This document shows positions 697-26,993 of a stretch of 32,172 nucleotides of DNA, in pieces. The notes under the pieces were generated by a model. The model searched no databases, was not told the DNA's origin, and was given only the letters and a program-made list of their open reading frames with translations. The number at the start of each line of letters is the position of its first letter. The stretch's first letter is position 1. Location of the stretch: the IMG/VR virus record IMGVR_UViG_3300012964_000039, positions 1 through 32,172 of that record. One strand, given 5' to 3'. The position numbers and the translations under genes were made by a program. The stretch comes from a virus.

Positions 697-705
697 GAGG
701 TGCAC

Positions 706-1782
706 ATGGTAACCGCGAAGAAAGTCGTGAAGAGGCCTGCCGCCAAGGCAACGCCCAAGGCAACGCCCAAGGCAACGCCCAAGGCAACGCCCAAGGCAAC
801 GCCCAAGGCAACGCCCAAGGCAACGCCCAAGGCAACGCCCAAGGCAACGCCCAAGGCAACGCCCAAGGCAACACGCGCACCGATAACGCTTCCTGCGCCA
901 CGCAGAAAGACAAAGACGGCGGAGCCGCTGCCGCCAGTACTACAGCCTCCGACGCACGCCCCGCTCTACACGGAGTGTGAGTCAAAGAGTGCTGTAGCGC
1001 CGCAGAAGCCCGCACCCGACACGCCCGAGATTGCAGTGTTCGCAAGTGCGCATCGGGAAACCTGCATTCGCATCAGCATCGGGCGGAAGAACGTGGCATA
1101 CATACCGTTCGATGCGCACGGCCTCCACGTCAAGCGTTGCGGCATGGAGGCCTTCAATGAGGAGTGGTGCTTGGTCTTTGCAGGGTATAGCCCTGCGATG
1201 GCTGCGCAACGCTATCTCATGAGTTTCGCAGCACTGCACTACATTTCTGAAGAGGCACGCACCCACCTTGAAGAAATCTCTAAATCTGGGGCAATCAAAT
1301 CAATTACCAAGGAGAATACCATGACCACAGCATCTAAGACCACAAAGAAAGCAACCCCGCCCGCCGTGTCTGCCAAGGGCTTTGACAAGGCCAAGGCGGC
1401 GGCAGACTACAAGGCCGCAGTCGCCAAGCCCGCCGCAGCAGGCGGCAAGGCATCGGCAGCAAAGAAGCCCGCAGCCAAGCCCGCGAAACCTGCTGCTAAG
1501 AGCACTAAGACCGCAGCTAAGAAGCCTGCTGCGAAACCTGCTGCCAAGGGTGCGAAGGCCGCTAAGAAGCCCGCAGCAGTCCGCTTCGCCGGTCGCAAGA
1601 TCAAAGTTCTGAACAAGGAACACGGCGCACGGGAGGGCACCAAGCGCCAGATCGGCATGGACATCCTCATCAACAGCAAGACCACCGATGAAGCGTTCAA
1701 GAAGTTCGAAAAGTACGAAGGCATCGATGCGAGCTTCATTCGTTTCGCAGTTGACAGTGGCATCATCGCGCTGTCCGAGTAA
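706..1782 (+). CDS. KATP-repeat protein fused in frame to histone-like Lys/Ala/Pro-rich protein
   Basis: The start is ATG at 706, five bases after an AGGAGG at 695-700; a GTG at 700 inside that site is rejected. The 358-residue product has a basic N-terminus and ten perfect KATP repeats (about residues 14-53). A short domain without recognised homology follows (about residues 110-195, with CIRISIGRKNVAYIPFD). The second half is rich in Lys, Ala and Pro (KKPAAKPA-type), like bacterial histone H1-like or AlgP-type DNA-binding tails. It ends in a small globular segment (GRKIKVLNKEHGAREGTK onward). The second half has its own ribosome binding site and ATG at 1321, so this may be two genes that lost a separating stop. 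DNA compaction or nucleoid binding is inferred from composition only. Confidence 0.7.
   Translation: MVTAKKVVKRPAAKATPKATPKATPKATPKATPKATPKATPKATPKATPKATPKATRAPITLPAPRRKTKTAEPLPPVLQPPTHAPLYTECESKSAVAPQKPAPDTPEIAVFASAHRETCIRISIGRKNVAYIPFDAHGLHVKRCGMEAFNEEWCLVFAGYSPAMAAQRYLMSFAALHYISEEARTHLEEISKSGAIKSITKENTMTTASKTTKKATPPAVSAKGFDKAKAAADYKAAVAKPAAAGGKASAAKKPAAKPAKPAAKSTKTAAKKPAAKPAAKGAKAAKKPAAVRFAGRKIKVLNKEHGAREGTKRQIGMDILINSKTTDEAFKKFEKYEGIDASFIRFAVDSGIIALSE
745..876 (+). repeat. 12-bp coding tandem repeat (KATP)n
   Basis: Ten perfect copies of AAGGCAACGCCC occupy 745-864, followed by a variant copy at 865-876. The repeat encodes Lys-Ala-Thr-Pro. Identity at the DNA level points to recent expansion by slippage or recombination. 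Copy number is likely to vary between relatives, and it will be hard to resolve with short reads. Confidence 0.95.
1321..1782 (+). CDS. possible separately initiated histone-like protein (internal start)
   Basis: An AAGGAG motif at 1309-1314 followed by ATG at 1321 lies inside the longer frame starting at 706. A 153-residue product from here would begin MTTASKTTKKATPPA. It would consist of a KPAA-rich tail (about residues 30-85) and a C-terminal globular part of about 65 residues. The composition resembles H1-like DNA-binding proteins of proteobacteria. The well-formed ribosome binding site suggests this was, or still is, an independent gene. The alternative is a single fused polypeptide with a fortuitous site. 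The gene ends just before the hairpin at 1794. Confidence 0.55.
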   Translation: MTTASKTTKKATPPAVSAKGFDKAKAAADYKAAVAKPAAAGGKASAAKKPAAKPAKPAAKSTKTAAKKPAAKPAAKGAKAAKKPAAVRFAGRKIKVLNKEHGAREGTKRQIGMDILINSKTTDEAFKKFEKYEGIDASFIRFAVDSGIIALSE

Positions 1783-1839: not shown

Positions 1840-1986
1840 ATGAAGCTGTGTAGACGATGCGGGCATAGACACCCAAGCGCGTATTTCTGCGCCTTTGTAG
1901 CTGCGAATAAACGCGCAGAATTGCGCATGAAGCCATTTGACAGATTCATTCAGCAATGGCGGCGCAGTAGAGAAAGGAGTTCGTAA
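1840..1986 (+). CDS. 48-aa Cys/His micro-protein, possible zinc finger
   Basis: ATG at 1840 is preceded by TTGGAGGAG at 1827-1835, a strong ribosome binding site. The stop TAA at 1984-1986 overlaps the ATG of the next gene (TAATG), which indicates translational coupling. The product begins MKLCRRCGHRHPSAYFC. Its CxxC pair (Cys4, Cys7), His9, His11 and Cys17 could bind one zinc ion. The C-terminus is rich in Arg (WRRSRERSS). It is the first gene of the base-modification operon. The function is unknown; a small nucleic-acid or protein adaptor is possible. The main support is the strong ribosome binding site and the overlap with the next gene. Confidence 0.7.
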   Translation: MKLCRRCGHRHPSAYFCAFVAANKRAELRMKPFDRFIQQWRRSRERSS

Positions 1987-2855
1987 TGCTGAAGATATTC
2001 ATACCTAGCTGGCGACGCCCAGCTACAACCACAACGCCCGCCCTGCTCGATGCGTGCGGCATAGATTACAAATTGGTGATCCGCGAAACTGAATACGCGG
2101 AGTACCTCAAGAATTTCAACAAGAAGAAACTGTTGGTCATCGGCGCGGAAGACGGGCTCAACCTTGCGCGGGAATATACGCGCTCGCTGCTCAAGAAGAA
2201 TGAGTGGTGCCTGCACATGGACGACAACGTGCTGGGCTTTATCCAGTGCGAAAAGAAGTTCTACCACGCGCATGACGTGGTTCCGCTTGACGATGGCGAA
2301 GACATGGTGACCCGCGCCAAGTGGCAGCCCACCATGAACCACAAAGTATCGTTCAAGGAATTCTACGACCTCGTCGTATCTGACACCGTCTTCAAATGTG
2401 TGCAGCGCGGCGCGTATCTGGCCGGATTCAGCGCCCACGACAACCCAGCGTTCCGCTATCGTAAGTTCACGGATGTGGGCTACGTGTGCGGCAAGACGAT
2501 GCTGATGTGCAACCAAGGACTTCCGTGGGTACAGTCCTACGAGTCGTCAGGCGAGGACTACGCGCTCACCGCCGCGCACCTGTACGAGAACGGCAGGGTG
2601 CTCATCAACAAGTGGGGACATCCCATGCGGAAGCACTACATGGCGGGAGGGTGCGGCCCGTACGATGAACGGCTATCAGCCATGATGCGCGCACAGCAAG
2701 ACCTCTGCCTGCGCTACGGCGACCTCTTTGCAATCAAGAACGAAGGCAAGGAGGACAAGCGTCAAGGCGAGCTGCGACTGCGCTTCAACAGCTTGGAGCA
2801 GGTTGCCAAGTGGCGCGCAGACCTACCCCACGATCCGAATTGGAGGATGAAATGA
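1986..2855 (+). CDS. TAGT-like glycosyltransferase (predicted DNA-base glycosyltransferase)
   Basis: The 289-residue product begins MLKIFIPSWRRPATTTTPAL, which looks like the first strand and nucleotide-binding loop of a GT-A type glycosyltransferase. WCLHMDDN at about residues 74-81 is a DxD-like metal and sugar-nucleotide site. This pattern fits the TET/JBP-associated glycosyltransferase (TAGT) group described in phage base-modification clusters by Iyer and colleagues in 2013. The likely role is transfer of a sugar from a nucleotide sugar to a hydroxymethylated or further modified pyrimidine in phage DNA. It overlaps the micro-protein gene upstream (TAATG) and the radical SAM gene downstream (ATGA), so the genes are coupled. 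No TET/JBP oxygenase is visible, and a thymidylate-synthase homologue may supply the hydroxymethyl group instead. Assignment rests on motif recognition, not on alignment. Confidence 0.72.
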   Translation: MLKIFIPSWRRPATTTTPALLDACGIDYKLVIRETEYAEYLKNFNKKKLLVIGAEDGLNLAREYTRSLLKKNEWCLHMDDNVLGFIQCEKKFYHAHDVVPLDDGEDMVTRAKWQPTMNHKVSFKEFYDLVVSDTVFKCVQRGAYLAGFSAHDNPAFRYRKFTDVGYVCGKTMLMCNQGLPWVQSYESSGEDYALTAAHLYENGRVLINKWGHPMRKHYMAGGCGPYDERLSAMMRAQQDLCLRYGDLFAIKNEGKEDKRQGELRLRFNSLEQVAKWRADLPHDPNWRMK

Positions 2856-3676
2856 CAAGGCTGTTCAACACAATCAGCATAGAAATCGCCAGCTTGTGCA
2901 ACCGAAAGTGCGACTGGTGCCCTGTTGCGTACAACGACCGCCCTGACGAACGCATGGAGGGTGCGGTACTGGAGCGCATACTCGCGGATCTCAAGGCGCT
3001 GAACTACAACGGTCGCGTGGAGTTGTATCTGTACAATGAACCGACTCGCGAGCTGACGTACCTGATCAACGTGATCACGCGAGTTCGGTACATGCTGCCG
3101 CGCGCCTGCATCATGATTGCCACGAACGGAGACTACTTGCGCGGCGTAGGGAACATTCTTCAGCTCTATGCGGCGGGGCTTAATCAGCTACTCATCAACT
3201 GCTACACCAAGGGACTGATGGAACGGCGTAAGAAGTGGGTTGAAGGCTTACCGGACGGCATTACGCAGGACGCCGGTGTGTACGCCAATACAGGGCCGCA
3301 CAAGCGCATCGTGGATATCATGGACAAGAGCAACCCCGCCAGCTTTGGGAAGGGTGTGTTCTCACTAGTGAACCGAGCAGGTAATATCCCGAACTTCAAA
3401 CCGGCGCTGAAGAAGCCCGTAGAACGTATGTGCGTCAAGCCGTTCCGCATTCTCAACATCAACTGGCGCGGCGATGCGCTGATCTGTTGTCAGGACTATC
3501 ACGGCAAGGTGAATATCGGAAACGTATTGTCGCTCGGCGTGGAAGGTTTGTGGAACCATGCAGTATTCAAAGAGTACCGCCACAAGCTGTACGCCAAGAA
3601 TCGCAGCCTACCGCTCTGTCGCGAATGTGATTGCCATGCGGGGGCGTACCCGCACAACGTACCTGTTCCGGACTAG
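2852..3676 (+). CDS. radical SAM enzyme with C-terminal SPASM/twitch-like cysteines
   Basis: The start is ATG at 2852, overlapping the previous stop as ATGA and following GGAGGA. The 274-residue product has the canonical CxxxCxxC cluster motif at Cys16, Cys20 and Cys23 (CNRKCDWC), which binds the 4Fe-4S cluster and S-adenosylmethionine. The C-terminal part carries MCVKPFRILNINWRGDALIC, a further Cys and CRECDC, the pattern of a SPASM or twitch auxiliary cluster. Radical SAM enzymes act in some thymidine hypermodification pathways, where one rearranges an amino-acid adduct on the base. The neighbouring hypermodification gene suggests a similar job here. The substrate is unknown; peptide or sugar modification is the main alternative. 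Confidence 0.9.
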   Translation: MTRLFNTISIEIASLCNRKCDWCPVAYNDRPDERMEGAVLERILADLKALNYNGRVELYLYNEPTRELTYLINVITRVRYMLPRACIMIATNGDYLRGVGNILQLYAAGLNQLLINCYTKGLMERRKKWVEGLPDGITQDAGVYANTGPHKRIVDIMDKSNPASFGKGVFSLVNRAGNIPNFKPALKKPVERMCVKPFRILNINWRGDALICCQDYHGKVNIGNVLSLGVEGLWNHAVFKEYRHKLYAKNRSLPLCRECDCHAGAYPHNVPVPD

Positions 3677-3684
3677 GAGATACT

Positions 3685-4551
3685 ATGAACAAAGAAAACT
3701 TCAAGAAGATGCTGTACTGGATGGAAGAACGGCAGCGAATTTATCTGCGAAAAGAAGCGGGAGAACCAAAGCCATGGACAAAAGACCCCATCCTCCGCGA
3801 TAACAAGTTCTGCAATGTTTACAGGGAGCAGGACAAGACTACTGTCTGGATCAAGGAAAACTGGCGCGATCCATATGCAGATCACGAAGATCTATGGTTT
3901 GCGATGCTGGTAGCGCGGCTGATCAACAAGCCGGACTCGTTGCAAGAGCTGGGTGTGCCGCTGCCGTGGAGCGCCAAGCGGTTCACGCAGGTGATACACA
4001 AGCGCACGCAGCGCGGAGACACGGTGTTCAGCGGTGCGTACATAGTCAGCACGAACGGCATCGCAATGGATAAGGTGGACTACCTTGCGGAGCGGGTACT
4101 GACGCCTATCTGGAATGCGCGTAAGCAGGTTCGCCCAGTGGCTGTGGACACACTGGACGCCTTCCACAAGCGCCTCATTCAATTCAACGGAGTAGGGTCG
4201 TTCATCGGCGCGCAGGTCGTGGCGGATATGAAGTACACGCCGATACTGTGCAACGCCGATGACTGGTACGCATTCGCTGCCAGCGGGCCGGGAAGCCGCC
4301 GTGGACTGAATCGTGTACTGGGCAGACCGCCCGCTGCTGCGTGGTCTGAAGAGGGCTGGCGGAACGCACTGCGCGAACTGTGGGTGGCGCTCGGCGATGA
4401 CAAGCGATACGCCAAGCTGCGCGCAGAAGGTGTATTTCCGCAGCCTGTTCACTGCCAAGATCTGCAGAATGTATGTTGTGAATTCGACAAGATGATGCGG
4501 ATCAGTAACGGTGAGGGGCGTATGAAGGCAACTTACAAAGGAGGCGCGTGA
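3685..4551 (+). CDS. DNA base hypermodification protein (HMUDK-helical / aGPT-PPlase type)
   Basis: ATG at 3685 follows AGGAG. The 288-residue helical protein has WTKDPIL (31-37), KFCNVYRE (41-48), NGVGSFIGAQVVADM (168-182), SGPGSRRGLNRVLGR (200-214) and HCQDLQNVCCEFDK (256-269). I recognise this set from phage proteins annotated as base-hypermodification factors. These are related to the helical domain of 5-hydroxymethyl-dU DNA kinases and to alpha-glutamyl/putrescinyl-thymine pyrophosphorylases. The NGVGSFIG segment looks like a helix-hairpin-helix of the DNA glycosylase type. There is no P-loop, so it is not itself the kinase. Its likely role is to attach or exchange a group on a phosphorylated hydroxymethyl-pyrimidine in DNA. 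Which clade it belongs to cannot be settled by eye. It is coupled to the next gene by TGATG. Confidence 0.78.
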   Translation: MNKENFKKMLYWMEERQRIYLRKEAGEPKPWTKDPILRDNKFCNVYREQDKTTVWIKENWRDPYADHEDLWFAMLVARLINKPDSLQELGVPLPWSAKRFTQVIHKRTQRGDTVFSGAYIVSTNGIAMDKVDYLAERVLTPIWNARKQVRPVAVDTLDAFHKRLIQFNGVGSFIGAQVVADMKYTPILCNADDWYAFAASGPGSRRGLNRVLGRPPAAAWSEEGWRNALRELWVALGDDKRYAKLRAEGVFPQPVHCQDLQNVCCEFDKMMRISNGEGRMKATYKGGA

Positions 4552-5570
4552 TGGTACGAACAATCACAGTAAACAATGTCAATGAGGCGTTGAGCGAGGC
4601 GCTCTGGCACCTCAAGACGGAGGGCGTGGTCACGGACTCACGGAACGGCGCGGTACTGGCTGCGCCGGACCCCGTGATCACAACGTACACGCAGCCCACG
4701 CAGCGAGTGATGCTGTCTGCGCTGCGCGATGCAAACCCGTTCTTCCACCACATGGAGGCGATATGGATGCTGGCCGGTGCGAACGACGTGGCATTCCCCA
4801 GCACGTACGCCAAGCAGATCGCGGCATATAGCGACGATGGCGAAACGCTGAATGGCGCGTATGGTCATCGCTGGCGGACGCATTTCGGCGGTGATCAACT
4901 GGTGTGGCTGATCAACCTGCTACGTAGTGATCCACACACGCGGCGCGCAGTGCTTGGCATGTGGGACGCCAGCAGCGACCTCGCCAAGACACAAAGTAGC
5001 AAGGATGTTCCCTGCAATACGCACGCCTACTTCAGCACGACGCGCGGAGCACTTGATATGACGGTGTGCTGTCGCAGTAACGACGCCGTCTGGGGCGCGT
5101 ATGGCGCGAACGCGGTTCACTTTTCTATGCTATTGCAGTTCATCGCGGAGGCCGCTGGGCTGCCTGTGGGTCACTATCATCAACTGAGCAATAATCTGCA
5201 CATCTACCTTGACCGACCAGACGTTGACCGGTTGATCTTCCGCAGCACCGACAGGATTGATGTGAAGTACCAGCCAGACACGCGATATCAATACTGGTAC
5301 ATGCAGGCCATCAAGCCGCTGATACTTCCCGCTGAACACTATACGGAATTCCTGCGCGATGCCGAGGAGTTCGTCAGCGACCCAACCGGCGATACGCAGT
5401 TCCGCACATGCTACTTCAACGAAGTGGTCGCTCCTATGCAGGTCGCGCACATGGCGTATCGTGAGCGTGACTTTGAAGCCGCGCTGATAGCGTGCGTAGA
5501 CATCACGGACACTCCGTGGCAGACAGCGTGCAGCGAGTGGCTGGAGCGTAGGAGGAACAATGCAAAATAA
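4551..5570 (+). CDS. thymidylate synthase family protein, predicted dUMP hydroxymethylase
   Basis: The start is ATG at 4551, overlapping the previous TGA and preceded by AAAGGAGG; a GTG three bases upstream is less likely. The 339-residue product shows thymidylate-synthase landmarks: GAYGHRWR near 103-110, RRAVLGMWD (131-139), the catalytic Cys155 in VPCNTHAYF, CRSNDAVWGAYGAN (174-187) and LSNNLHIY (212-219). The PCN context and RSND motif resemble phage pyrimidine hydroxymethylases more than cellular ThyA. Asn187 aligns best with the Asn that reads uracil in ThyA, whereas T4 dCMP hydroxymethylase has Asp, so dUMP is the favoured substrate. The product would be 5-hydroxymethyl-dUMP. An ordinary phage ThyA remains possible. 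Confidence 0.82.
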   Translation: MVRTITVNNVNEALSEALWHLKTEGVVTDSRNGAVLAAPDPVITTYTQPTQRVMLSALRDANPFFHHMEAIWMLAGANDVAFPSTYAKQIAAYSDDGETLNGAYGHRWRTHFGGDQLVWLINLLRSDPHTRRAVLGMWDASSDLAKTQSSKDVPCNTHAYFSTTRGALDMTVCCRSNDAVWGAYGANAVHFSMLLQFIAEAAGLPVGHYHQLSNNLHIYLDRPDVDRLIFRSTDRIDVKYQPDTRYQYWYMQAIKPLILPAEHYTEFLRDAEEFVSDPTGDTQFRTCYFNEVVAPMQVAHMAYRERDFEAALIACVDITDTPWQTACSEWLERRRNNAK

Positions 5571-6072
5571 ATTGAACTTGATCATGCGTGGTGGGCGCGT
5601 CAAGCGGTATCACGTGATGGACACGCTTAAACAGCAGACAGTCGCGGAGCATAGCTTCGGCGTGGCATGGCTGGTGTGGTTGTTGTGCGATGGACGGCCT
5701 AGCGTGGAGCTAGTGATGGCCGCCCTCCAGCACGACCTCGCGGAACACGTGACCGGCGACCTACCCGCACCAGCCAAGCGCAGTCTCGGCATTAGCAAGC
5801 AGTTTGAAGAATATGAATCCGCCATCATGGCCGACGCACGAATGCCGCAGGTGATGCTGACGCAGGCAGAGCGGCGCACTTTGAAGTTCGCAGATACGTG
5901 CGACCTTATGCTGTACTGTTTGCGAGAAATGGAACTGGGCAACTACGGCATCCATGAGGTCTACAAACGTGGTCGTCAGTACATCTGCGAACTCGGCGAA
6001 CGTAGCACCAAGGAGTCTGAACTTTATAACTACATTCAAGGAGTGGAACGTGAGCTCGTCAGCAAACACTAG
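5560..6072 (+). CDS. HD-domain deoxynucleotide phosphohydrolase (YfbR/DatZ-like)
   Basis: ATG at 5560 lies inside the end of the preceding gene (11-bp overlap) after TAGGAGG. The 170-residue product has the metal-binding HD pattern: His31 in AEHSFGVAWL, His58-Asp59 in LQHDLAEHVTGDLP, and Asp112 in LKFADTCDLM. Size and motifs match the YfbR 5'-nucleotidase and phage DatZ-type group of HD hydrolases, which remove phosphate groups from deoxynucleotides. In phages with modified bases such enzymes deplete the unmodified nucleotide. Here the likely target is the normal pyrimidine nucleotide that would compete with the hydroxymethylated one. Substrate specificity cannot be read from the sequence. 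Confidence 0.85.
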   Translation: MQNKLNLIMRGGRVKRYHVMDTLKQQTVAEHSFGVAWLVWLLCDGRPSVELVMAALQHDLAEHVTGDLPAPAKRSLGISKQFEEYESAIMADARMPQVMLTQAERRTLKFADTCDLMLYCLREMELGNYGIHEVYKRGRQYICELGERSTKESELYNYIQGVERELVSKH

Positions 6073-6541
6073 ACAGGTCGGCGGTAAACACTACAGCAGC
6101 CAGTATCAGCACTGGGATTTCGCGCACGATGCCTTCGGTGACGGCTACTTCCAAGGTCAGATCACCAAGTACGTGTTCCGATGGAAAAAGAAGAACGGCT
6201 TGGAGGATCTAAACAAGGCCGCGCACTTCCTGCAGAAACTCATAGAGCTGCGGGATGGGCTGGGCGTGGCGGGGCTGCTTGTGCAACTGCTTGTGCAAGC
6301 GTTCTACACATTGTCAGGGCAGCGCGCGCTGGCGCGCAAACTCGTACAGCAGTTGATCAAAGCGAACGATGTAGGCATTGCTGAGTCCCTCGTGATGCAG
6401 TACGTGGCGGACGGTCGCCGCGATTCGCTGGCGCGCGCTGCGCGAATACTGGGGCATCTTATCTACAGCCTGTCCGAGGACGCCTGCGGCGCGTGCGGCG
6501 CGTCTGCGCGGTACGTTGATCAAGATGGCGGCCCGCCATGA
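6050..6541 (+). CDS. DUF3310 domain protein
   Basis: The start is GTG at 6050, six bases after AAGGAG (6038-6043), within the end of the HD gene. The N-terminal 70 residues contain RQVGGKHYSSQYQHWDFAHD and TKYVFRWKKKNGLEDLNKAA, the signature of the DUF3310 family, widespread in phages and sometimes labelled a nucleotide kinase without proof. A C-terminal extension of roughly 90 residues, rich in Leu, Ala and Arg, is not typical of the short family members. It ends with a Cys/Gly-rich tail (CGACGAS). It overlaps the HTH gene downstream as ATGA. A role in nucleotide metabolism alongside its neighbours is plausible but unproven. Confidence 0.8.
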   Translation: MSSSANTRQVGGKHYSSQYQHWDFAHDAFGDGYFQGQITKYVFRWKKKNGLEDLNKAAHFLQKLIELRDGLGVAGLLVQLLVQAFYTLSGQRALARKLVQQLIKANDVGIAESLVMQYVADGRRDSLARAARILGHLIYSLSEDACGACGASARYVDQDGGPP

Positions 6542-7814: not shown

Positions 7815-7987
7815 AATTCTTAAAGAATGCTGGTGGATGGGCTTTTGGATTGATTACTTTCGCAGCTTGCACTACATGCACAACTCTGGGCCATTATGCA
7901 GAAACGTGGGCGATTGGTTACTTTGTTGGACTTGCGTTTGCTGCTTTTGGTGGAATAGCTGTAGCGCTGACCATGATTGGAGATTGA
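7811..7987 (+). CDS. 58-aa membrane protein
   Basis: ATG at 7811 overlaps the stop of the micro-protein gene, and GGAG lies eight bases upstream. The product begins MKFLKNAGGWAFGLITFAAC and contains two hydrophobic stretches: about residues 9-25, with two Cys residues, and about residues 36-55 (AIGYFVGLAFAAFGGIAVAL). A hairpin of two membrane helices is likely. The size would fit a small holin or an exclusion protein, but the recognisable lysis genes are on the other strand. No family is recognised. Confidence 0.6.
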   Translation: MKFLKNAGGWAFGLITFAACTTCTTLGHYAETWAIGYFVGLAFAAFGGIAVALTMIGD

Positions 7988-7989
7988 TT

Positions 7990-8745
7990 ATGACCGCACA
8001 GAACGAAGAGAAGATGGTGACAGCATTTGAATTGCGCCATGCTGACGCTAAGTTTATCTCAGTAACACTCGTAGAAGAATTCAATGCTGGATACAAAGCC
8101 GCCATCGCCCAAGGAGAGCAAGAGCGCAAGTTCTTACTCGAAACAGTCGAATCATTGCAATTTCAGCTTGGAGACAAAATTATGAAATTCGAATTTCAAC
8201 TCTCCGAATCCCAAAAGCGCGAGGCAGCACTTCAAGCAGAGATGGATGAGCTGAAAAGGAAGTTGGCGGAGCAGCAGGCTACAATGTATGCAGTTCTAGT
8301 ACAAGAACTCGCAGATAAGCACGGCAAGGAAGAACTCACCAATCTCTTAGTAGCAGAGCGCAACAATGCTTATTCCAAACTGGAATTTATACGCCATCTG
8401 AAAGGGCCGATTATTGGCGGAATTGCTATTGGATATAGCAACGACGAAGGCGGGTTTACTATCGTCAAAGAATGTCCTGCGTCACTTGTTCAGGAGCATG
8501 AAGCAGAGGCTAGAGCAGCAGAGCGCAACAAGGTACTGGCTGAAATGAGCCATATGGAGCCGGTTGGTTATGTTCGTTCCTACGGCGTGGAGTGCTTGCA
8601 AGGGACGCTTATGAATCAAACAACAGGGAGAATCCCCCTTCCGTCTAGCACTACGATTGACCCGTATCCGGTAACAGACGATGATATTCCGCTGTATGTT
8701 ATTCCAGAATCTCCACAACCAGCAGCGCAGAGTGAAGGGGAATAG
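7990..8745 (+). CDS. coiled-coil protein with C-terminal EPVGYV...PLY motif
   Basis: ATG at 7990 follows GGAG and begins two bases after the previous stop. A longer frame upstream would overlap two membrane genes and was rejected. The 251-residue product has a long helical, charged region (about residues 40-125, including EMDELKRKLAEQQ) that should form a coiled coil. Near the C-terminus come MEPVGYVRSYG and DDIPLYVIPESPQPA. The EPV...PLY..P pairing is a small motif frequent in phage early genes of unknown function and recurs in the gene at 9433. It is probably cytosolic. No function can be assigned. Confidence 0.7.
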   Translation: MTAQNEEKMVTAFELRHADAKFISVTLVEEFNAGYKAAIAQGEQERKFLLETVESLQFQLGDKIMKFEFQLSESQKREAALQAEMDELKRKLAEQQATMYAVLVQELADKHGKEELTNLLVAERNNAYSKLEFIRHLKGPIIGGIAIGYSNDEGGFTIVKECPASLVQEHEAEARAAERNKVLAEMSHMEPVGYVRSYGVECLQGTLMNQTTGRIPLPSSTTIDPYPVTDDDIPLYVIPESPQPAAQSEGE

Positions 8746-8746
8746 A

Positions 8747-8947
8747 GTGAGACAGCCTGAAATTTATACAGCCAACACACTGCGCCAATGGGATGAAGCA
8801 GTACCGAAAGAGCGCAATGGTAACTACTACATTCCAGCGCGGCCTGTAGGTCATAATTTGTATCCAGTGCTGCACAGATTGAAAGTTGCGTGGCAAGTAT
8901 TCATAGGTAAATACGATGCTGTTAATTGGGAGAACCAAAATGACTGA
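8747..8947 (+). CDS. hypothetical protein, 66 aa
   Basis: The start is GTG at 8747, one base after the previous stop, with GAAGGGG upstream. An ATG at 8681 in the same frame would overlap the previous gene extensively and lacks a clear site. The product begins MRQPEIYTANTLRQWDEAVP and ends FIGKYDAVNWENQND. It looks like a compact accessory protein seen in other phages, of unknown function. The end overlaps the start of the next gene by eight bases. Confidence 0.65.
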   Translation: MRQPEIYTANTLRQWDEAVPKERNGNYYIPARPVGHNLYPVLHRLKVAWQVFIGKYDAVNWENQND

Positions 8948-9431
8948 CATACTGGATAGGCTCAATACATTCGATCATGGCTACGCAGCAGCGGAGGCAA
9001 AATTCGAATCCGAGAACGCCGAACTGAAACAGAAGCTGGCAGCTTTTGCTGCCACTAAAAAATCCTTGTGGCACACGGTTGATAAAGCCAATGAACAAAT
9101 AACCGAAGATGAAGCAACCATCGAATCCCTCAACCTGCGAGTGTCGCGGCTGGTGGATGCGGCGCAAAATTATCTTGACCACAGTATGCCCACGAGACTC
9201 ACTCATGAACATTGTGGTTCACAGTCTGGTCTTAAAGACGCACTCTCCTCCGAATCCGACTCCCAATGGCTGCGTGAGAAGCAGGCGGATGTGATTGAAA
9301 TGGCAAAACAGCAATTTAGAGAATATGAAAAGGAGTTCAGAACTGATGAGTTATTCATATCGTCAGTGATCGACGAACTGGAAGAACTGCAAACCGAACT
9401 CCGCAACCCATCACCAGCAGAGGAAAGTTGA
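8940..9431 (+). CDS. coiled-coil hypothetical protein, 163 aa
   Basis: ATG at 8940 follows GGGAG and overlaps the previous gene by eight bases. The product is strongly helical and acidic: ESENAELKQKLAAFAATKK and a segment of alternating Glu and Leu suggest a coiled coil over residues 20-75, with a second helical part near residues 110-155. One His/Cys-containing stretch (HEHCGSQS) lies between them. No domain is recognised. The arrangement resembles the coiled-coil gene at 7990 and may reflect a family of accessory proteins. Confidence 0.7.
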   Translation: MTDILDRLNTFDHGYAAAEAKFESENAELKQKLAAFAATKKSLWHTVDKANEQITEDEATIESLNLRVSRLVDAAQNYLDHSMPTRLTHEHCGSQSGLKDALSSESDSQWLREKQADVIEMAKQQFREYEKEFRTDELFISSVIDELEELQTELRNPSPAEES

Positions 9432-9432
9432 A

Positions 9433-9816
9433 ATGGCGCGCAATAAAAACATCAACAAGATAATTGGGGATGGCTTCGTTGAATTGCAGAAAGAGGTTAT
9501 CGCACTTCGTACCGAGCGCGATGCTCTACAGGCTTGGAAGGATGAGGCGGAGAAGCAGGAGCCGGTTGCTGCGGTTAGGATATGGGACGAATTTAGCATC
9601 AACACATTCGAATTTGAACAATATGCTGGATTTCGTAATCTTCCAGTTGGGGAATATAAACTCTACCTTAATCCAGCACCAGCAAAGGAAGGATATGTGC
9701 TTGCCGGTTACTTCATGCTGCACAACGGCATCCCGACAAAAATTGCCGATGAGTATGTCGGTAAAGGGCTGGATGATGGAGTGGATGAATTCCCGCTTTA
9801 TCGCAAGGAGAAGTAA
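9433..9816 (+). CDS. hypothetical protein with EPV...PLY motif, 127 aa
   Basis: ATG at 9433 begins one base after the previous stop; GAGGAAAG lies upstream. The N-terminal 40 residues are a charged helix (FVELQKEVIALRTERDALQ). A segment starting QEPVAAVRIWDEF and containing YKLYLNPAPAKEG follows, and the protein ends EFPLYRKEK. The EPV and PLY landmarks match the C-terminal motif of the gene at 7990, although the intervening sequence differs. The function is unknown. It is in the AT-richer accessory block. Confidence 0.7.
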   Translation: MARNKNINKIIGDGFVELQKEVIALRTERDALQAWKDEAEKQEPVAAVRIWDEFSINTFEFEQYAGFRNLPVGEYKLYLNPAPAKEGYVLAGYFMLHNGIPTKIADEYVGKGLDDGVDEFPLYRKEK

Positions 9817-9817
9817 A

Positions 9818-10078
9818 ATGGACAAAGAAACGCTTTATACGCTCGGCAAATCTTACCAATGGTTTGATGGGAATCGCAAAGAATCATGCGAAGGATGGAC
9901 ATTCAATACAGAAACTCAACTTCTCTCATTCGCCCAATCCTGCTGTGATTGGCAGAAAGAGAAGGATGCGCAGATTTGCGACTATATAGCTGCCAGTCAT
10001 CTTGAATTCGTTGGTGACGCCGCGGACTGTGCAGACGCAATCCGAAACGCGAAGGAAATACCTCGGCGCGCCATCTAG
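9818..10078 (+). CDS. hypothetical protein, 86 aa, last plus-strand gene
   Basis: ATG at 9818 follows AAGGAG. A longer frame starting at 9464 would overlap the previous gene and is rejected. The product begins MDKETLYTLGKSYQWFDGNR and has several Cys and Trp residues in its middle (SCCDWQKEKDAQICDY). It is probably a small soluble protein. The stop TAG at 10076-10078 overlaps the stop of the convergent gene on the other strand, so this gene marks the end of the plus-strand block. Confidence 0.7.
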   Translation: MDKETLYTLGKSYQWFDGNRKESCEGWTFNTETQLLSFAQSCCDWQKEKDAQICDYIAASHLEFVGDAADCADAIRNAKEIPRRAI

Positions 10079-10608
10079 AACTGATACTCAACGTGCAGCC
10101 CAGCATATCCGTCGCCGTCCGTGAACAGCTCAATGCTGCCGCCTACGTGCAGCGCCTTCATCTGCACAAAGTTACCGCCTACGGCAAGCTGCCCCACATT
10201 CCCGATCTTGGTTTTTACGCCGTACCCCATGCGTACGTAGTACCGGCGCTCGGCCGCCAGCCACGGCAGAGGGTCATTACGCACTGACACAGACACATCG
10301 CCACTCTTATCGTCATAGACCGCCACGGCTGTGAACGGCTGGCTCGTGATGGGAAACTGCGCCGTCTCAACAACGTGCTTGCTGGGATCGTCCTGGACGG
10401 TCTGCGGTAGACCCAATTTTCGCTTGGCGGCGGGCGGAAGCGCCTTGACCGGAGCGCCAGATATCGGAGCCTTCGCCATTCCGGCAACTGCTTTGTCATC
10501 TTTGGTTTCGGTATAAATGCCGACCGGCGCAGACCGTAGATAGTTCCAGACTATCACCAGCAGCGCCAGGCCAGCGAGCAAGACTGTGTATGGTTTCCAG
10601 CTGGTCAC
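10075..10608 (-). CDS. membrane-anchored hypothetical protein, 177 aa
   Basis: The start is GTG at 10608, overlapping the stop of the gene before it in transcription order (GTGA) and preceded by GAGGAG. Residues 7-24 (TVLLAGLALLVIVWNYL) form one N-terminal membrane anchor or uncleaved signal. A Pro/Ala-rich linker follows, then a soluble domain with PLPWLAAERRYYVRMGYGV and a C-terminal VGGSIELFTDGDGYAGLHVEYQF-like beta-rich end. I have an impression of similar proteins at the end of phage lysis cassettes, but no function is established. It is the last gene of the minus block. Confidence 0.7.
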   Translation of the reverse strand: MTSWKPYTVLLAGLALLVIVWNYLRSAPVGIYTETKDDKAVAGMAKAPISGAPVKALPPAAKRKLGLPQTVQDDPSKHVVETAQFPITSQPFTAVAVYDDKSGDVSVSVRNDPLPWLAAERRYYVRMGYGVKTKIGNVGQLAVGGNFVQMKALHVGGSIELFTDGDGYAGLHVEYQF

Positions 10609-11009
10609 AGTTTAGTCTCCTCGACAGGCTTCGCAGACGCTGTGGCGTTCACGCCGCTATCCAACATGTAGCCGCCAGCAAGTGCAGCACCGATGCCGAA
10701 AAAGCAGATGGACGGCATGGTGTGCGTAGTAACTGCCAGATTCCACAGCAACACAGGGTCAATCCAGTCAGACACCCCAGTACCGGCAGCCATCGCCGCG
10801 ACTGCAAAGATTGAGCCTCCCGATTTGACTGACGCAGCCGGATTGTCGGTGAATATGTATTCCAGCAGCGTCGAACTTGTGCGTCCGCTGTGCCGCAACT
10901 TGATCCAGTGAATCGCCGCGCCAATCAGCATGAGCACCAGCACGAAGGCGAATGCGTTGAGATTGATGCTATCGCCCATCGGGGCGACGACTGTGCTTGC
11001 TTGTTCCAT
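10605..11009 (-). CDS. holin-like multi-pass membrane protein
   Basis: ATG at 11009 follows TAGGAGG. The 134-residue product has a clear transmembrane segment at about 17-35 (AFAFVLVLMLIGAAIHWI). Two further hydrophobic stretches lie at about 66-90 and 97-115 (ICFFGIGAALAGGYM), with short charged ends. Size, topology and position directly after the endolysin gene suggest a holin, the pore protein that times lysis. No holin family signature is recognised, so this is context-based; a structural membrane protein is the alternative. Confidence 0.5.
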   Translation of the reverse strand: MEQASTVVAPMGDSINLNAFAFVLVLMLIGAAIHWIKLRHSGRTSSTLLEYIFTDNPAASVKSGGSIFAVAAMAAGTGVSDWIDPVLLWNLAVTTHTMPSICFFGIGAALAGGYMLDSGVNATASAKPVEETKL

Positions 11010-11018
11010 GACTGCCTC

Positions 11019-11504
11019 CTAACAATTGTATTGGTCTTGTTCCGGCAGGCGCGGTGCCATCGCCGGAGACATCGATGGGATGTAGAACCGGCGTTTGGAC
11101 AGCGGCGGCACGCGCTGGACATGAACCCAATGCAGCCAGCTTCCGTCCGATTGCTCTTTTGACGTCCACTCGAAGCGTTCAACCCACAGACCTAGCTCCG
11201 CCAGCCTGCCTTGATTCTTGCAGCACCAGCGAGCGAGATCGCGGTTCGGCGTGTCCCGCACGTCGCAGGCTTCCGCCGTTATGTGGCGCGAGTGCTCGGC
11301 GGCGTTGCTGGTGGCGCAGTTAACCTGAGCAGGCCGCCAGCCGCTGGCGCAGTCAGTAAGAATGATCCCCGTGTCTGCCGCAAACATGCCGAGCAGCTTG
11401 TCCACGACGAACACCGTCACTTCTCCGTTGCTCTTGATCTTCTGCGTAAACTCATCAGGATAGATTGTGTCTCGACCCATCCAATACTGCGGCATAAAAA
11501 TCAT
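11019..11504 (-). CDS. endolysin, peptidase M15 family
   Basis: The start is ATG at 11504, which overlaps the previous stop (ATGA) and follows GGAGGATTGAA. A longer upstream extension in the same frame is rejected. The 161-residue product shows the M15 pattern: SGWRP (54-58), SRHITAEACD (72-81) matching SxHxxxxAxD with zinc ligands His74 and Asp81, and WLHWVHVQ (123-130) supplying the third ligand, His128. This family cleaves peptide bonds in peptidoglycan stem peptides or cross-links. No signal peptide is seen, so export would depend on the holin. Its place in a cassette with two membrane proteins supports a role in host lysis. Confidence 0.82.
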   Translation of the reverse strand: MIFMPQYWMGRDTIYPDEFTQKIKSNGEVTVFVVDKLLGMFAADTGIILTDCASGWRPAQVNCATSNAAEHSRHITAEACDVRDTPNRDLARWCCKNQGRLAELGLWVERFEWTSKEQSDGSWLHWVHVQRVPPLSKRRFYIPSMSPAMAPRLPEQDQYNC

Positions 11505-11836
11505 TTCAATCCTCCATAGTGAAGCAGCGCCCAGATGGCACCGACGGCGGCCACAAATCCGGCCAGCCACTTGGTAACGCGCCCTATCAGCTGGACTCCC
11601 TTCACGAAGCCCTTGGCGTTGTTCCACGCTGACATTATCTCTAGTTGAACCTCGTTCTGCGCGCGAATCGCCCTCAGCTCTTCCATCAGTTGCGACTGCA
11701 GTGCGTTCAGCGCTGCCTCATGCAGCAGCAGATCCTGCTCGCGCAGCTCTTCCAGGCGCTTAAGTCTGGTAGTCAGCTCGCCAACGGCTCTGTGGTCATC
11801 AGCACGCCGCTTCTCTGTTCTGCGTTCTTCGTCCAT
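11501..11836 (-). CDS. coiled-coil protein with C-terminal membrane anchor
   Basis: ATG at 11836 is used; the ribosome binding site is weak. The 111-residue product has a long charged helix (about residues 8-65, including ELTTRLKRLEELREQDL), predicted as a coiled coil, and one hydrophobic helix at about 90-106 (WLAGFVAAVGAIWALLHY). This layout resembles haemolysin XhlA-type or other phage lysis-associated anchors. It overlaps the endolysin gene by an ATGA, so the two are coupled. A role as holin partner or spanin-like protein is possible but not shown. Confidence 0.6.
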   Translation of the reverse strand: MDEERRTEKRRADDHRAVGELTTRLKRLEELREQDLLLHEAALNALQSQLMEELRAIRAQNEVQLEIMSAWNNAKGFVKGVQLIGRVTKWLAGFVAAVGAIWALLHYGGLK

Positions 11837-11847
11837 GGTGTGCGCAC

Positions 11848-13158
11848 TCAGAATACACGAACACGAACTTCACCGCGAGCGCCAGCGGCTCCGCTTCCGC
11901 CGCCGCCTGCCGGAGCCACGCCAGTTCCGCCAGTAGCTCCTCCCGCCCCGCCCCAGTAGCCTATCCCACCACTAGGAGCGCCATCAGCCGATCCGCCGCC
12001 ACCACCAAACCAACTTCCTCCGGCGTACCCACTGCCAGTCTGCCCACCGCAGCCTCCACCGTACATAGAAGCTCTGCCCTGCGGAACGCTTCCATTAGTC
12101 GAACCACCGGCTTCATTGATCGCAAATCCGTTCGCAGATGCAACCACTCCTGACGCACCTGCGACACACCCGTAGCCTCCCGCGCCGCCAGTACCGCCAC
12201 CGCCGCCACCCCCCGAGCCCGACTTACCGCCTGCTCCGCCGTATGCTGTAACAATTCCAGCGAACGTCGAATTGCCGCCATTCGTCCCAGGATTTCCGGC
12301 GGGGCCGCCAAGACCTACAATCACTGATTCTGTCGCATTCAATTGCGAAGCATATACGATGATGGATGAGTAACCGCCCCCACCCCCGCCGTCCTGTGAG
12401 ACTACGCTACCACCACCGCCGCCTGCCCATGCTTGTATCTGTACTAAAGCGCTAGGCGCGAGGCCTGCGGGCTTGATCCAAGTGCCACTTACCGTGAATG
12501 CTTGATAGTCATTCGTTCTATCTACGTAAGCTGTAGTCGCGACTTTTGTGCTGCTATCGTTCGCAGGTTGCGTTGTAGCTGTAGCGCCCGCCGACAAAGA
12601 ATTCGCAACCGCAGCATCACCTGTGATGCTGATACCCCAAGTCCCCGATGCACCGGTTCCAGTCAGCGGAGCGTACACTGTGCTGTTGACATGCGACCAA
12701 CCAGCGCCGCCAGTGTCTGGATTTGCTACATTGTTGTCTGCCGTGCTCACCCACAGCAATCCGGTCGTGATAGCCGATTGTACGATAGCGCCCTTGGGAT
12801 AGCCGCCAATGTTGGTTTGGTACGTGCCGTCGTAGTACACAGGTCCACCAGCGGCCCACCAGCGCGCATGAGCAGACACGTCGCGCAAGATACCGTTCAT
12901 GTCCTGTCCGAACGGCGGAACACCTCCCGCGTTGATCGGTGTGAAGTTCAACGGTGGAAAACCGTCCGTGTATGATGCTGCGCCATTCTGAATGCCGATC
13001 TGCGATGCAATCGGAACAGTTCGTACGTACGCGCCCCCTGCGCTATTGGCGAATGGGATCTGTATTTTTGTTGGAGCAGCTGAGTCAGTCAGGCTATACG
13101 CGGGGGACATGAGCACCAGTGTCGCGGCCAGAAACCAATTGATTGTTTGTCTAAACAT
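11848..13158 (-). CDS. tail fibre with Gly-rich C-terminus and N-terminal signal peptide
   Basis: ATG at 13158 follows AGGAGAATAGC. The 436-residue protein begins with a Sec-type signal (MFRQTINWFLAATLVLMSPAYS), unusual for a fibre. The next part (about 25-150) is typical of phage tail fibres: TVPIASQIGIQNGAASYTDG, GVPPFGQDMNGIL and NPDTGGAGW. The C-terminal half is dominated by glycine runs (from about residue 245 to the end). This resembles polyglycine-rich receptor-binding tips such as the gp38 adhesins of some T4-like phages. Role: recognition of the host surface. It follows the DUF2612 gene in the operon. Confidence 0.8.
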   Translation of the reverse strand: MFRQTINWFLAATLVLMSPAYSLTDSAAPTKIQIPFANSAGGAYVRTVPIASQIGIQNGAASYTDGFPPLNFTPINAGGVPPFGQDMNGILRDVSAHARWWAAGGPVYYDGTYQTNIGGYPKGAIVQSAITTGLLWVSTADNNVANPDTGGAGWSHVNSTVYAPLTGTGASGTWGISITGDAAVANSLSAGATATTQPANDSSTKVATTAYVDRTNDYQAFTVSGTWIKPAGLAPSALVQIQAWAGGGGGSVVSQDGGGGGGYSSIIVYASQLNATESVIVGLGGPAGNPGTNGGNSTFAGIVTAYGGAGGKSGSGGGGGGGTGGAGGYGCVAGASGVVASANGFAINEAGGSTNGSVPQGRASMYGGGCGGQTGSGYAGGSWFGGGGGSADGAPSGGIGYWGGAGGATGGTGVAPAGGGGSGAAGARGEVRVRVF

Positions 13159-13170
13159 GCTATTCTCCTA

Positions 13171-13800
13171 TCACGCGAAGCTATATAGTGGAAACACACC
13201 GGTCGGCTTTGGCAGCACTCCGGATCCTTGAATCACAGCCTTCTCTACGGGTGTCGTCACGAAGTTGAATACATAGGTCAGCGTCATATCGTTATTATCC
13301 TGCACATGGCAGTCTCCGCGCCCAGGAAACAGGTTCAGCATGAGTTGGTTGATGCTGGTGATGGAGCAGTCGGTTATGTTTGCAAGAGCTTTCGCGAAGA
13401 TAAGCAGTCTGAACGCATCAGCCGAGAGCGTGTTGTTTGCGGTCACAGAACCTCCGCTGAAGAATGCTCCTTGCCCAAACCCTACCGAGCTGAGCGTGCC
13501 AGCTTCTTCAAACCCGAAGTCCAGTCCTGCCACGGTGGGAACTACCCGCGTGACTCCCACGATGCGCCCCCAGATGTCGAGTCCTGCATCCTGCGCCGTA
13601 TCCACGTTCCAAAGTAGATCGTAGAACGCATCCATGTTTGCGGTCGGGTCAATGTACTGCGCGAAATCCTGGATTAGCTGAAGCAGTATGGGGCTGTTCG
13701 CGTACTGGCTGATCACCGTCGTGTTGAAGTCGAACGGAACAGGTGTGCCGATGGCGCTCTGTCCGATGACGAACTGTCCTATTGAAGTTGGAGTGGTCAT
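13171..13800 (-). CDS. DUF2612 baseplate/tail protein
   Basis: ATG at 13800 follows AAAGG. The 209-residue product has WNVDTAQDAGLDIWGRIVGV and DAFRLLIFAKALANITDCSI, the core pattern of the DUF2612 family. That family usually sits next to the J-like baseplate gene and is thought to link the baseplate periphery to fibres, like P2 gpI in position. Here it lies between two fibre genes, which agrees with an adaptor role. The family role is inferred from gene order, not from direct evidence. Confidence 0.8.
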   Translation of the reverse strand: MTTPTSIGQFVIGQSAIGTPVPFDFNTTVISQYANSPILLQLIQDFAQYIDPTANMDAFYDLLWNVDTAQDAGLDIWGRIVGVTRVVPTVAGLDFGFEEAGTLSSVGFGQGAFFSGGSVTANNTLSADAFRLLIFAKALANITDCSITSINQLMLNLFPGRGDCHVQDNNDMTLTYVFNFVTTPVEKAVIQGSGVLPKPTGVFPLYSFA

Positions 13801-13810
13801 GCCGATGCCT

Positions 13811-15702: not shown

Positions 15703-16911
15703 CTAAACCAAAGTCACTGCGATGTTGGCTATGTCAGTCGCCGGAATTTCATCGATCGGAACCACAACTTGATCAAGATTTGCCGTTGTCGTGCCTATCT
15801 TGATGGACACGATCTGCACCCACGAACCGAGCACCGCGACTGTCGAATAGTACCTGCTCGCAAATAATACGGAGCCAATTCTTGCACGCGGCCCTCCATC
15901 ACCACCGGCGAATGCGCTGATGATGGCACTCTGTATCTGCGTTGCCGCATCCGCCGGTACGCTGGCGCTGTTAGCAATGCTGATCGCGAATTTAATAGTC
16001 AGCGGCGTCGGGCGTTGGAACTTCACACTGTATGTAGGGAAGTTCGGACTGAACAATGGATTCGTATCAGTCACAGATACTGTCGTCGTTCCGTTGTACG
16101 CACATCCGGGCATCTTCTTTCTCAGAATTGCCGTGGCAACATCCACGTCAGCACCGCCCTGCGCGCACAAGTAGATAGAGTTCGCTGCAATGGTCACCCC
16201 AGTAATGACGGTCGGTGCGCTAGTATTATTTTCTGTGATGTACGCGTCAGACACGCCAGATACGTCAAGCACGCTGCCGAGGACCGACGCCAGCATGCCC
16301 TGTGAGTTCGCGGCGACAGATTGCTGTCGGCGTGTTTCGAACGCCGATCGGCTTTCAACGTCCTGTCCTAGAACGCCGTCAGCAGCATTCGTGATGCTGT
16401 CCCAGCCAGGAACTGCGCGGTAGATTTGATTCAGAGTGCCCGCAGGACAGGCGATAGGCCCGGCAATTGCGCACGCAAATGTTGCAGCGATGCTTCCGCC
16501 AATTGGAATCGTAACATCGGCCGTGTTCAGATAGACACTGCCATCCGCAGCGACGGCCTGCGCGTTGGCCGGTACGACTGTTCCGACGGCTCCAACCAAT
16601 GTCACGGAGACTGTCGTGGGAAGCGCGGGCAGACGCGTCATAAAGTAGATGCGGCCTATACCGTCCTGCATGCGCCCAGTTGAATATGCGGGGTCCATCT
16701 GTGACAACATGCTCACGAACTGCGCATTGGCTGCTGCGACGATGGCTGTCTCGCTCGTGGCTAACTGGCCTTGCGGCGTCTCCAGCGATGGATTCAGGTT
16801 GCCGCCGAATGCAACGTTCATGTCCTGCTGCACGCCAGCCAGTATTGCGGCTTCCGTCGGAATGACGAGACCTGCGGATGTTATCTGCAGCGGTGGAACA
16901 TTCGTTGTCAT
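15703..16911 (-). CDS. baseplate J-like protein
   Basis: ATG at 16911 is used. The 402-residue product begins MTTNVPPLQITSAGLVIPTE. It contains SRSAFETRRQQSVAANSQGM, followed by VLDVSGVSDAYITENNT, the characteristic central region of baseplate J / gp47-like proteins. These wedge proteins link the gp25-like subunit to the tail fibre network and pass the signal for sheath contraction. Its neighbours, the gp25-like wedge upstream and DUF2612 and fibres downstream, match the usual gene order. The length is ordinary for the family. Confidence 0.88.
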   Translation of the reverse strand: MTTNVPPLQITSAGLVIPTEAAILAGVQQDMNVAFGGNLNPSLETPQGQLATSETAIVAAANAQFVSMLSQMDPAYSTGRMQDGIGRIYFMTRLPALPTTVSVTLVGAVGTVVPANAQAVAADGSVYLNTADVTIPIGGSIAATFACAIAGPIACPAGTLNQIYRAVPGWDSITNAADGVLGQDVESRSAFETRRQQSVAANSQGMLASVLGSVLDVSGVSDAYITENNTSAPTVITGVTIAANSIYLCAQGGADVDVATAILRKKMPGCAYNGTTTVSVTDTNPLFSPNFPTYSVKFQRPTPLTIKFAISIANSASVPADAATQIQSAIISAFAGGDGGPRARIGSVLFASRYYSTVAVLGSWVQIVSIKIGTTTANLDQVVVPIDEIPATDIANIAVTLV

Positions 16912-16921
16912 CGTGTTTGTC

Positions 16922-17272: not shown

Positions 17273-17273
17273 G

Positions 17274-19706: not shown

Positions 19707-19710
19707 CACG

Positions 19711-21054: not shown

Positions 21055-21055
21055 C

Positions 21056-21663: not shown

Positions 21664-21664
21664 A

Positions 21665-22099: not shown

Positions 22100-22115
22100 G
22101 TTTCGTTCTCCTCAG

Positions 22116-23858: not shown

Positions 23859-23887
23859 GGTTGCTCCTTGTTAAATTGCGACGGTGA

Positions 23888-25134: not shown

Positions 25135-25144
25135 GACACTCTCC

Positions 25145-25375: not shown

Positions 25376-25376
25376 A

Positions 25377-25787: not shown

Positions 25788-25791
25788 AGCG

Positions 25792-26508: not shown

Positions 26509-26525
26509 GTCTTGTTTCTCCTTGG

Positions 26526-26987: not shown

Positions 26988-26993
26988 ACTGCG

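Follow-up and report, generated by a model that had tools for sequence, protein, structure and literature searches.

A phage gene cassette predicted to glycosylate 5-hydroxymethyl-deoxyuridine in DNA without a kinase, and its BtrN-like radical SAM enzyme

What would a glycosyltransferase and a radical S-adenosylmethionine (SAM) enzyme do in a phage gene cluster that shares its core with the hypermodification cluster of Pseudomonas phage M6? The question is raised by virus record IMGVR_UViG_3300012964_000039, the whole of which (32,172 bases) was analysed here and is referred to as the window. Five open reading frames (ORFs), P0001 to P0005, form the cassette:

1986..2855, + strand: P0001, TAGT-family (PF20691) GT-A glycosyltransferase, 289 amino acids (aa) (Pfam, PHROG, structural model)
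2852..3676, + strand: P0002, BtrN-like twitch radical SAM enzyme, 274 aa (PDB and profile search)
3685..4551, + strand: P0003, HMUDK_hel / aGPT-PPlase1 (PF18723), 288 aa (Pfam, structural model)
4551..5570, + strand: P0004, thymidylate synthase (TS)-family protein, predicted dUMP 5-hydroxymethylase, 339 aa (PHROG, alignment)
5560..6072, + strand: P0005, YfbR-like HD phosphohydrolase, 170 aa (Pfam, PDB matches)

We conclude, with a probability of roughly 0.6, that this is a modular cassette for kinase-free glycosylation of 5-hydroxymethyl-deoxyuridine (5-hmdU) in phage DNA, followed by radical tailoring; the resulting base would stand in for thymine. Such a pathway would be an alternative to the known phage route through a phosphorylated base.

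The sequence-only reading had proposed five linked genes at 1986–6072 and had named a family for each. The ORFs are present at those positions and mostly overlap, and profile scans of the window proteins against Pfam, PHROG and NCBIfam placed them in the named families. The third product had been called "HMUDK-helical / aGPT-PPlase type"; it does match PF18723, but the two names denote that single family, and the amino acid:DNA transferase (ADDT) is a separate one, PF18724 (gp51 in M6). The TAGT and radical SAM genes overlap by ATGA (2852–2855), the HMUDK_hel and TS genes by TGATG (4549–4553), and the TS and HD genes by 11 bases, while 8 bases separate the end of the radical SAM gene from the start of HMUDK_hel. 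Catalytic motifs are kept in all five proteins. The gene order is not due to chance, since the radical SAM-bearing cassette recurs in 12 further IMG/VR loci and on two contigs from metagenome-assembled genomes (MAGs).

Exchange of kinase and glycosyltransferase genes beside HMUDK_hel

The M6 cluster, responsible for 5-(2-aminoethyl)deoxyuridine, comprises gp51 (ADDT), gp52 (a pyridoxal phosphate enzyme), gp53 (radical SAM), gp54 (5-hmdU DNA kinase, PF18748), gp55 (HMUDK_hel), gp56 (Nmad5), gp58 (hydroxymethylase) and gp59 (HD). The window has HMUDK_hel, hydroxymethylase and HD genes in the identical order, but it has the TAGT and BtrN-like genes in the slot, unlike M6 with its kinase, ADDT, pyridoxal phosphate enzyme, Nmad5 and a radical SAM enzyme of another kind. 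The close analogy to M6 and ViI drawn in the sequence-only reading thus narrows to the three core genes. A 5-hmdU DNA kinase elsewhere in the genome, for which that reading had allowed, was not found: neither PF18748 nor PF18724 was detected in the 32,172-base record, which appears to be a fragment.

To place the window among its relatives, P0003 was used to scan IMG/VR, which yielded 14 loci, and an alignment scan yielded at least 80, of 550 candidates. Removal of near-identical HMUDK_hel copies left 74 loci, whose neighbouring genes were labelled with profiles built here. A cassette was considered compact when TS lay within 3 kb downstream of HMUDK_hel and at least 2.5 kb of sequence was available upstream (n = 42). 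The slot was occupied by a kinase in 11 of these and by a glycosyltransferase in 31, with none having both and none having neither (Fisher's test, which takes no account of relatedness, p = 2.3e-10). The glycosyltransferases fall into five groups: TAGT, TAGT2 and three GT-B-like groups (cl6, cl19 and cl29). These groups were chosen after the loci had been viewed, so that the absence of empty slots is partly a product of construction; the absence of cassettes with both is not. ADDT genes were found in seven of the 11 kinase cassettes and in none of the 31 glycosyltransferase cassettes. Three loci (L042, L043 and L088) initially taken to lack a slot gene were gene-calling artefacts, in which TAGT2 overlapped a falsely extended HMUDK_hel ORF.

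A tree was built of 48 HMUDK_hel proteins, on which at least seven changes were needed to explain the kinase labels and at least seven to explain the radical SAM labels; well-supported branches forced at least four, and the distribution is thus not the result of one inheritance event. In phylogenetically independent pairs, kinase and glycosyltransferase were opposite in five of five (p = 0.06). Together, the tree and the pairs indicate that exchange happened repeatedly, with a modest number of independent events. This exchange provides a simple sequence rule for predicting the chemical class of a phage's modified thymine. In this sample glycosyltransferases are the commoner partners of HMUDK_hel and kinases the rarer, which calls its name, "5-hmdU DNA kinase helical domain", into question.

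Occurrence and relatives of the radical SAM enzyme

After de-replication, 12 loci carried the radical SAM gene: the window, L034, L035, L037, L041, L043, L044, L053, L073, L083, L085 and L097. Each of the 12 has a glycosyltransferase gene, belonging to TAGT, TAGT2 or one of the three GT-B-like groups, and neither kinase nor ADDT was present in the sequence available for each locus. A thirteenth, L050, which is related to L053, has glycosyltransferase, radical SAM, HMUDK_hel and TS genes and no kinase. In the surveyed cassettes, a BtrN-like radical SAM gene is found next to HMUDK_hel only alongside glycosyltransferases. L097 is nearest to the window (TAGT 66%, radical SAM 60%, HMUDK_hel 55%). 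A radical SAM scan of 84,980 prokaryote genomes gave four relatives, two of which, one from a MAG labelled "archaeon" and one from a Patescibacteria MAG, sit in an HMUDK_hel–glycosyltransferase–TS cassette; both contigs are probably phage-derived. A third relative, in Actinomadura, lies about 3 kb from a cl29-type match. The locus and genome scans together show that the close radical SAM family is largely tied to the HMUDK_hel cassette. Among cultured phages, tblastn with P0002 matched one record, a second radical SAM subfamily matched that same single record, and P0001 matched none; the full gene set is thus not in the cultured-phage collection.

P0002 matched the SPASM family (PF13186, E = 1e-10) and, weakly, Radical_SAM (PF04055). 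In a PDB search it matched BtrN at E = 4.7e-20, in an alignment that spans the radical SAM half as well as the auxiliary-cluster half, and a profile of 12 P0002 relatives matched BtrN at 1.9e-37 and the next solved protein at 3e-6, making BtrN the sole strong solved relative. The CX3CX2C motif (CNRKCDWC, residues 16–23) is followed by C194, C212/C213, C256 and C259, the candidate ligands of an auxiliary cluster; C16, C20, C23, C194, C212, C213, C256 and C259 are invariant in 12 aligned radical SAM proteins. P0002 and M6 gp53 have separate sets of relatives, and gp53 homologues were found only in L004/L036, L084 and M6 among the loci surveyed. P0002 is thus BtrN-like and not of the gp53 type.

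These data bear on whether the window phage might follow an M6-like route, with the kinase and ADDT encoded elsewhere in its genome, the radical SAM enzyme rearranging an amino-acid adduct, and TAGT being a late or unrelated addition. The shared HMUDK_hel, TS and HD core, the presence of a radical SAM gene in the M6 cluster and the fragmentary record are consistent with such a route, and a kinase lies 4.7–7.4 kb from HMUDK_hel in L004, L026, L076 and L084, so that distance alone does not exclude it. We nevertheless consider it quite unlikely, since the two radical SAM enzymes belong to different families, the radical SAM loci lack kinase and ADDT in the available sequence, and ADDT accompanies only kinases in the compact cassettes.

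BtrN oxidizes one hydroxyl of 2-deoxy-scyllo-inosamine to a ketone, with a four-cysteine auxiliary cluster as the likely electron acceptor (PMC9012708). P0002 shares with BtrN (PDB 4m7s/4m7t) the radical SAM core, twitch domain and auxiliary cluster, but the BtrN substrate is a free amino-cyclitol in butirosin biosynthesis. A precedent for radical chemistry on a base-linked sugar is the decarboxylase BlsE, whose substrate sugar is carried by a pyrimidine base (PMC3715490). The mildiomycin and blasticidin S pathways (MilA; BlsE/MilG) likewise combine a pyrimidine nucleotide hydroxymethylase, a base-linked sugar and a radical SAM enzyme acting on that sugar; unlike the phage system, they make small-molecule antibiotics and their hydroxymethylase is CMP-specific, and BlsE is described as NirJ-like. 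We predict that P0002 oxidizes a sugar hydroxyl or carries out other radical tailoring, and consider the chances about even that it acts on the sugar or its donor.

The radical SAM enzyme might instead act first, on the hydroxymethyl group or ring of the base, with TAGT carrying out plain glycosylation of 5-hmdU to give a base J-like or other hexosyl-hmdU. The radical SAM gene precedes the glycosyltransferase gene in L037, L034, L043, L044 and L083 and follows it in the window, L097, L073 and L085, so that gene order does not fix reaction order, and T-even relatives of TAGT are annotated as glycosylating hydroxymethyl bases. Were the base the target, however, a radical SAM gene could be expected in the kinase loci as well, which share the 5-hmdU intermediate, and it is absent from all of them. 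With BtrN acting on a cyclitol hydroxyl (PMC9012708) as well, we regard this order of events as unlikely.

Predicted roles of the cassette proteins

P0004 matched PF00303 (E = 5e-18) and phrog_5131 (E = 2e-110), and its best matches are the M6-type deoxyuridylate hydroxymethyltransferases (43–44% over 99%). It was aligned with E. coli ThyA, a T4-type dCMP hydroxymethylase and MilA, and the roles of the TS-family positions for dUMP versus dCMP, and of the position after the catalytic Cys, were taken from the literature (PMC8670742). The catalytic residue is Cys155 and the dUMP-specificity position holds Asn187, where the T4-type and CMP hydroxymethylases have Asp (for T4, the automatic alignment puts it one column away). 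Directly after the catalytic Cys comes Asn, as in M6 gp58, compared to His in ThyA. The closest solved TS-family match is a MilA-type CMP 5-hydroxymethylase. P0004 is presumably of the dUMP type and would make 5-hmdUMP. Could it instead be an ordinary thymidylate synthase, in a cassette that serves nucleotide supply and leaves the DNA unmodified? TS-family enzymes are common in phages, and an analysis of phiW-14 warned that hydroxymethylases are hard to separate from true synthases by sequence (PMC5977210). Against this stand the match to the M6-type enzymes, the M6-like His to Asn change and the consistent linkage with HMUDK_hel and TAGT, and we consider it highly improbable.

P0005 matched the YfbR-like family (PF12917, E = 4e-15) and, in the PDB, DatZ (E = 7.5e-8) and YfbR (4e-5). 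Its H31, H58-D59, E62 and D67 read as the metal and catalytic residues of YfbR-type enzymes, and the protein is homologous to M6 gp59; we predict that it removes a competing normal nucleotide. A "dATP triphosphohydrolase" label from Pfam and PHROG had raised the possibility of a DatZ-type Z-genome. We abandoned this because the same HD gene also lies beside the hydroxymethylase in M6 and no PurZ-like gene stood out among the ORFs of the window, although no search was aimed at PurZ.

P0001 matched TAGT with E = 1.2e-6, above the Pfam cut-off, and phrog_842, a beta-glucosyl-HMC-alpha-glucosyltransferase family, with E = 7e-8. The TAGT2 group of the sister loci fits TAGT better than P0001 does (L007, E = 6e-17). 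An AlphaFold model of P0001 (pLDDT 81) matched GT-A enzymes, the best being WrtF (E = 1e-4). D79 and D80 of the DDN motif (residues 79–81) and D191 are invariant in 16 aligned proteins. The TAGT profile had no sequence relative among solved structures, and a single-sequence scan of IMG/VR with P0001 gave no match, the TAGT relatives having come via the HMUDK_hel neighbourhoods. The predicted role of P0001 is to add a sugar to the base's hydroxymethyl group. General scans showed no TET/JBP oxygenase among the window proteins, although none was aimed at that family; the TS-family hydroxymethylase would supply the hydroxyl in its place. The sequence-only reading had proposed an elaborated hydroxymethyl-pyrimidine base, possibly ending with a sugar, and the dUMP-type TS, the clearing HD hydrolase and the DNA-base glycosyltransferase make a sugar-ended hydroxymethyl-uracil the best reading here as well.

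P0003 matched PF18723 with E = 8e-46, along with phrog_2396, and is 34% identical to M6 gp55. Its model, built from 65 sequences, has a pLDDT of 95. Foldseek gave weak matches (E = 0.4), the top ones being HhH-GPD DNA glycosylases and gp46/PUGT, a phage 5-PmdU glycinyltransferase, and a second aligner gave Z = 10.8 for both 8-oxoguanine glycosylase and PUGT, a likeness that we treat as a lead, since helical proteins often give middling Z scores. An HhH-like NGVGSF segment lies at residue 168, and the HMUDK_hel profile had no sequence relative among solved structures. From the model, P0003 is predicted to be a DNA-binding, possibly base-flipping partner that presents the base. Several HMUDK_hel genes have no TS, kinase or known glycosyltransferase in the stretch of sequence available (L009, L010, L011, L045, L051, L055, L060, L063, L068, L090, L091, L094, L099 and L102), many such loci being on large contigs; HMUDK_hel may have other partners. 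Conversely, the complete 40-kb phage genome L106 (MW202897.1) has TAGT2–TS–HD at 396–2694 and no HMUDK_hel match; the glycosyltransferase cassette may thus work without HMUDK_hel.

In the pathway that we propose, the TS homologue would convert dUMP to 5-hmdUMP, as its orthology and active-site residues indicate, and the HD hydrolase would clear the competing normal nucleotide. The phage polymerase, whose gene is not in the record, would then incorporate 5-hmdU into DNA, where HMUDK_hel would bind and present it to the partner transferase. TAGT, in the place of the kinase, would put a sugar on the 5-hydroxymethyl group, in keeping with its family, its GT-A fold and the slot exchange. Last, the BtrN-like enzyme may act on this sugar or on the nucleotide that donates it; conversion of a ring hydroxyl to a ketone would be the simplest case. 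This is the weakest step, suggested by the BtrN homology and the occurrence only with glycosyltransferases. The modified base would probably protect the phage DNA from host nucleases, and it is likely an undescribed one.

Several observations weigh against this pathway. The 32-kb record is broken by repeats at both ends, and more modification genes could be missing from it. TAGT passes its Pfam cut-off only narrowly (29 versus 27.5 bits), and three of the glycosyltransferase groups are so named mainly from motifs, with weak or absent Pfam matches. The exchange statistics rest on Fisher's test, blind to relatedness, and on five independent pairs. Among the loci outside the compact set, two related ones (L059 and L062) are the only exceptions to the exchange, each with both a kinase and a cl6 glycosyltransferase-like gene, so that the exclusivity is strong but not absolute. 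The putative role of HMUDK_hel derives from a model, and helical folds give middling Z scores by chance. Finally, the SPASM/twitch radical SAM class covers many reactions, and homology to BtrN therefore does not settle which one P0002 carries out.

A broader interpretation, which we put forward tentatively and at somewhat less than even odds, is that HMUDK_hel is a general base-presenting platform with swappable kinases and glycosyltransferases, and that in one sub-branch the radical SAM enzyme oxidizes or rebuilds the DNA-attached sugar. If so, the product would be a keto-sugar or other unprecedented DNA base and, to our knowledge, the first case of radical SAM chemistry on a DNA-linked sugar. 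On the proposed pathway, many uncultured phages would share a family of sugar-bearing DNA bases so far undescribed, and radical SAM chemistry would be put to a new use. Enzymes able to attach reactive sugars to DNA would make useful labelling tools, and the bases themselves would be relevant to resistance against restriction and other defences.

Parts of this arrangement have precedents. HTVC023P-type pelagiphages were already reported to have a glycosyltransferase together with HMUDK_hel, TS and a nucleotidase; unlike in the window, no radical SAM gene was found in the accessible part of that report, where the cluster was read as M6-like and the glycosyltransferase was not treated as a kinase replacement (PMC9599517). 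The hypermodified uracil of SP-15 is known to be glycosylated; the genes there form a different set (PMC5977210). In the cultured Brevibacterium phage LuckyBarnes, gp38–gp41 comprise TS, two TAGT genes and HMUDK_hel. Unlike the window, LuckyBarnes gave no match to a BtrN-like radical SAM or HD protein; kinase and ADDT were not matched in 50,000 of its 50,774 bases, and no report on its DNA modification was found in the literature searched. It is thus a cultured carrier of the glycosyltransferase version that could be used for testing. T-even glucosylation of hydroxymethylcytosine resembles the proposed route in forming the hydroxymethyl pyrimidine at the nucleotide level and in having glycosyltransferases that act on DNA, the T6-type alpha-glucosyltransferase being among the TAGT relatives, but the base is cytosine there and uracil here, and we know of no HMUDK_hel or radical SAM enzyme in that system. 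The literature searched, which did not include the key thymidine-hypermodification papers, yielded no description of a radical SAM enzyme paired with these genes or of kinase and glycosyltransferase exchanging places.

Neighbouring genes and the rest of the record

Two further genes adjoin the cassette:

700..1782, + strand: Lys/Ala/Pro-rich histone-like protein, upstream of the slot (ORF, 12-bp repeat array)
6050..6541, + strand: DUF3310 protein, overlapping the HD gene (PF11753, E = 2e-7)

The histone-like gene contains a perfect 12-bp repeat array of 10.8 copies that encodes KATP units, and its product has a conserved C-terminal domain common to many HMUDK_hel phages, whichever gene fills the slot. 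A DUF3310-like ORF also follows the cassette in the sister loci L005 and L006.

The position of the histone-like gene next to the slot raises the question of whether the glycosyltransferase and radical SAM enzyme modify a protein or surface glycan, such as the histone-like or virion proteins, leaving only TS, HD and HMUDK_hel concerned with DNA. Many SPASM enzymes modify peptides, and distant relatives of P0002 (25–30% identity) occur in other phage gene clusters: in L017 and L019 (around 8000–11700) BtrN-like radical SAM genes lie between glycosyltransferase- and methyltransferase-like genes, perhaps for glycan tailoring. However, histone-like relatives are found upstream in kinase as well as glycosyltransferase loci, the exchange of a glycosyltransferase for a DNA kinase is nearly strict, TAGT is a family of DNA-base glycosyltransferases, and the genes overlap. 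A protein or glycan target is accordingly very unlikely in our estimate.

The record ends (1–121 and 32061–32172) consist of perfect or near-perfect short tandem repeats with 18-bp and 15-bp units. Because these short-period repeats run off both ends, the 32,172-base record looks like a fragment; assembly probably stopped at terminal repeats, leaving the genome incomplete. No nucleotide-level match to positions 10000–32172 was found among cultured phages. Structural genes occupy 15703–31939 on the − strand, including baseplate J (PF04865), a DUF3383 protein and DUF2213, which suggests a contractile-tailed phage. A 195-bp direct repeat (14919–15340, 2.2 copies) lies inside the leftward ORF 13811–15691, one of the structural-region genes.

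Two sister loci have additional genes near the cassette. In L003, a TAGT-like glycosyltransferase, an NAD-dependent epimerase/dehydratase-family protein (PF01370) and a cl19 glycosyltransferase are encoded downstream of HMUDK_hel (12045–15276), a set that suggests phage-encoded synthesis of a sugar donor for base modification. In L007, a weak sulfotransferase-like match (PF17784, below cut-off) at 7965–8687 lies just upstream of TAGT2–HMUDK_hel–TS–HD, and its product could sulfate the sugar on the base.

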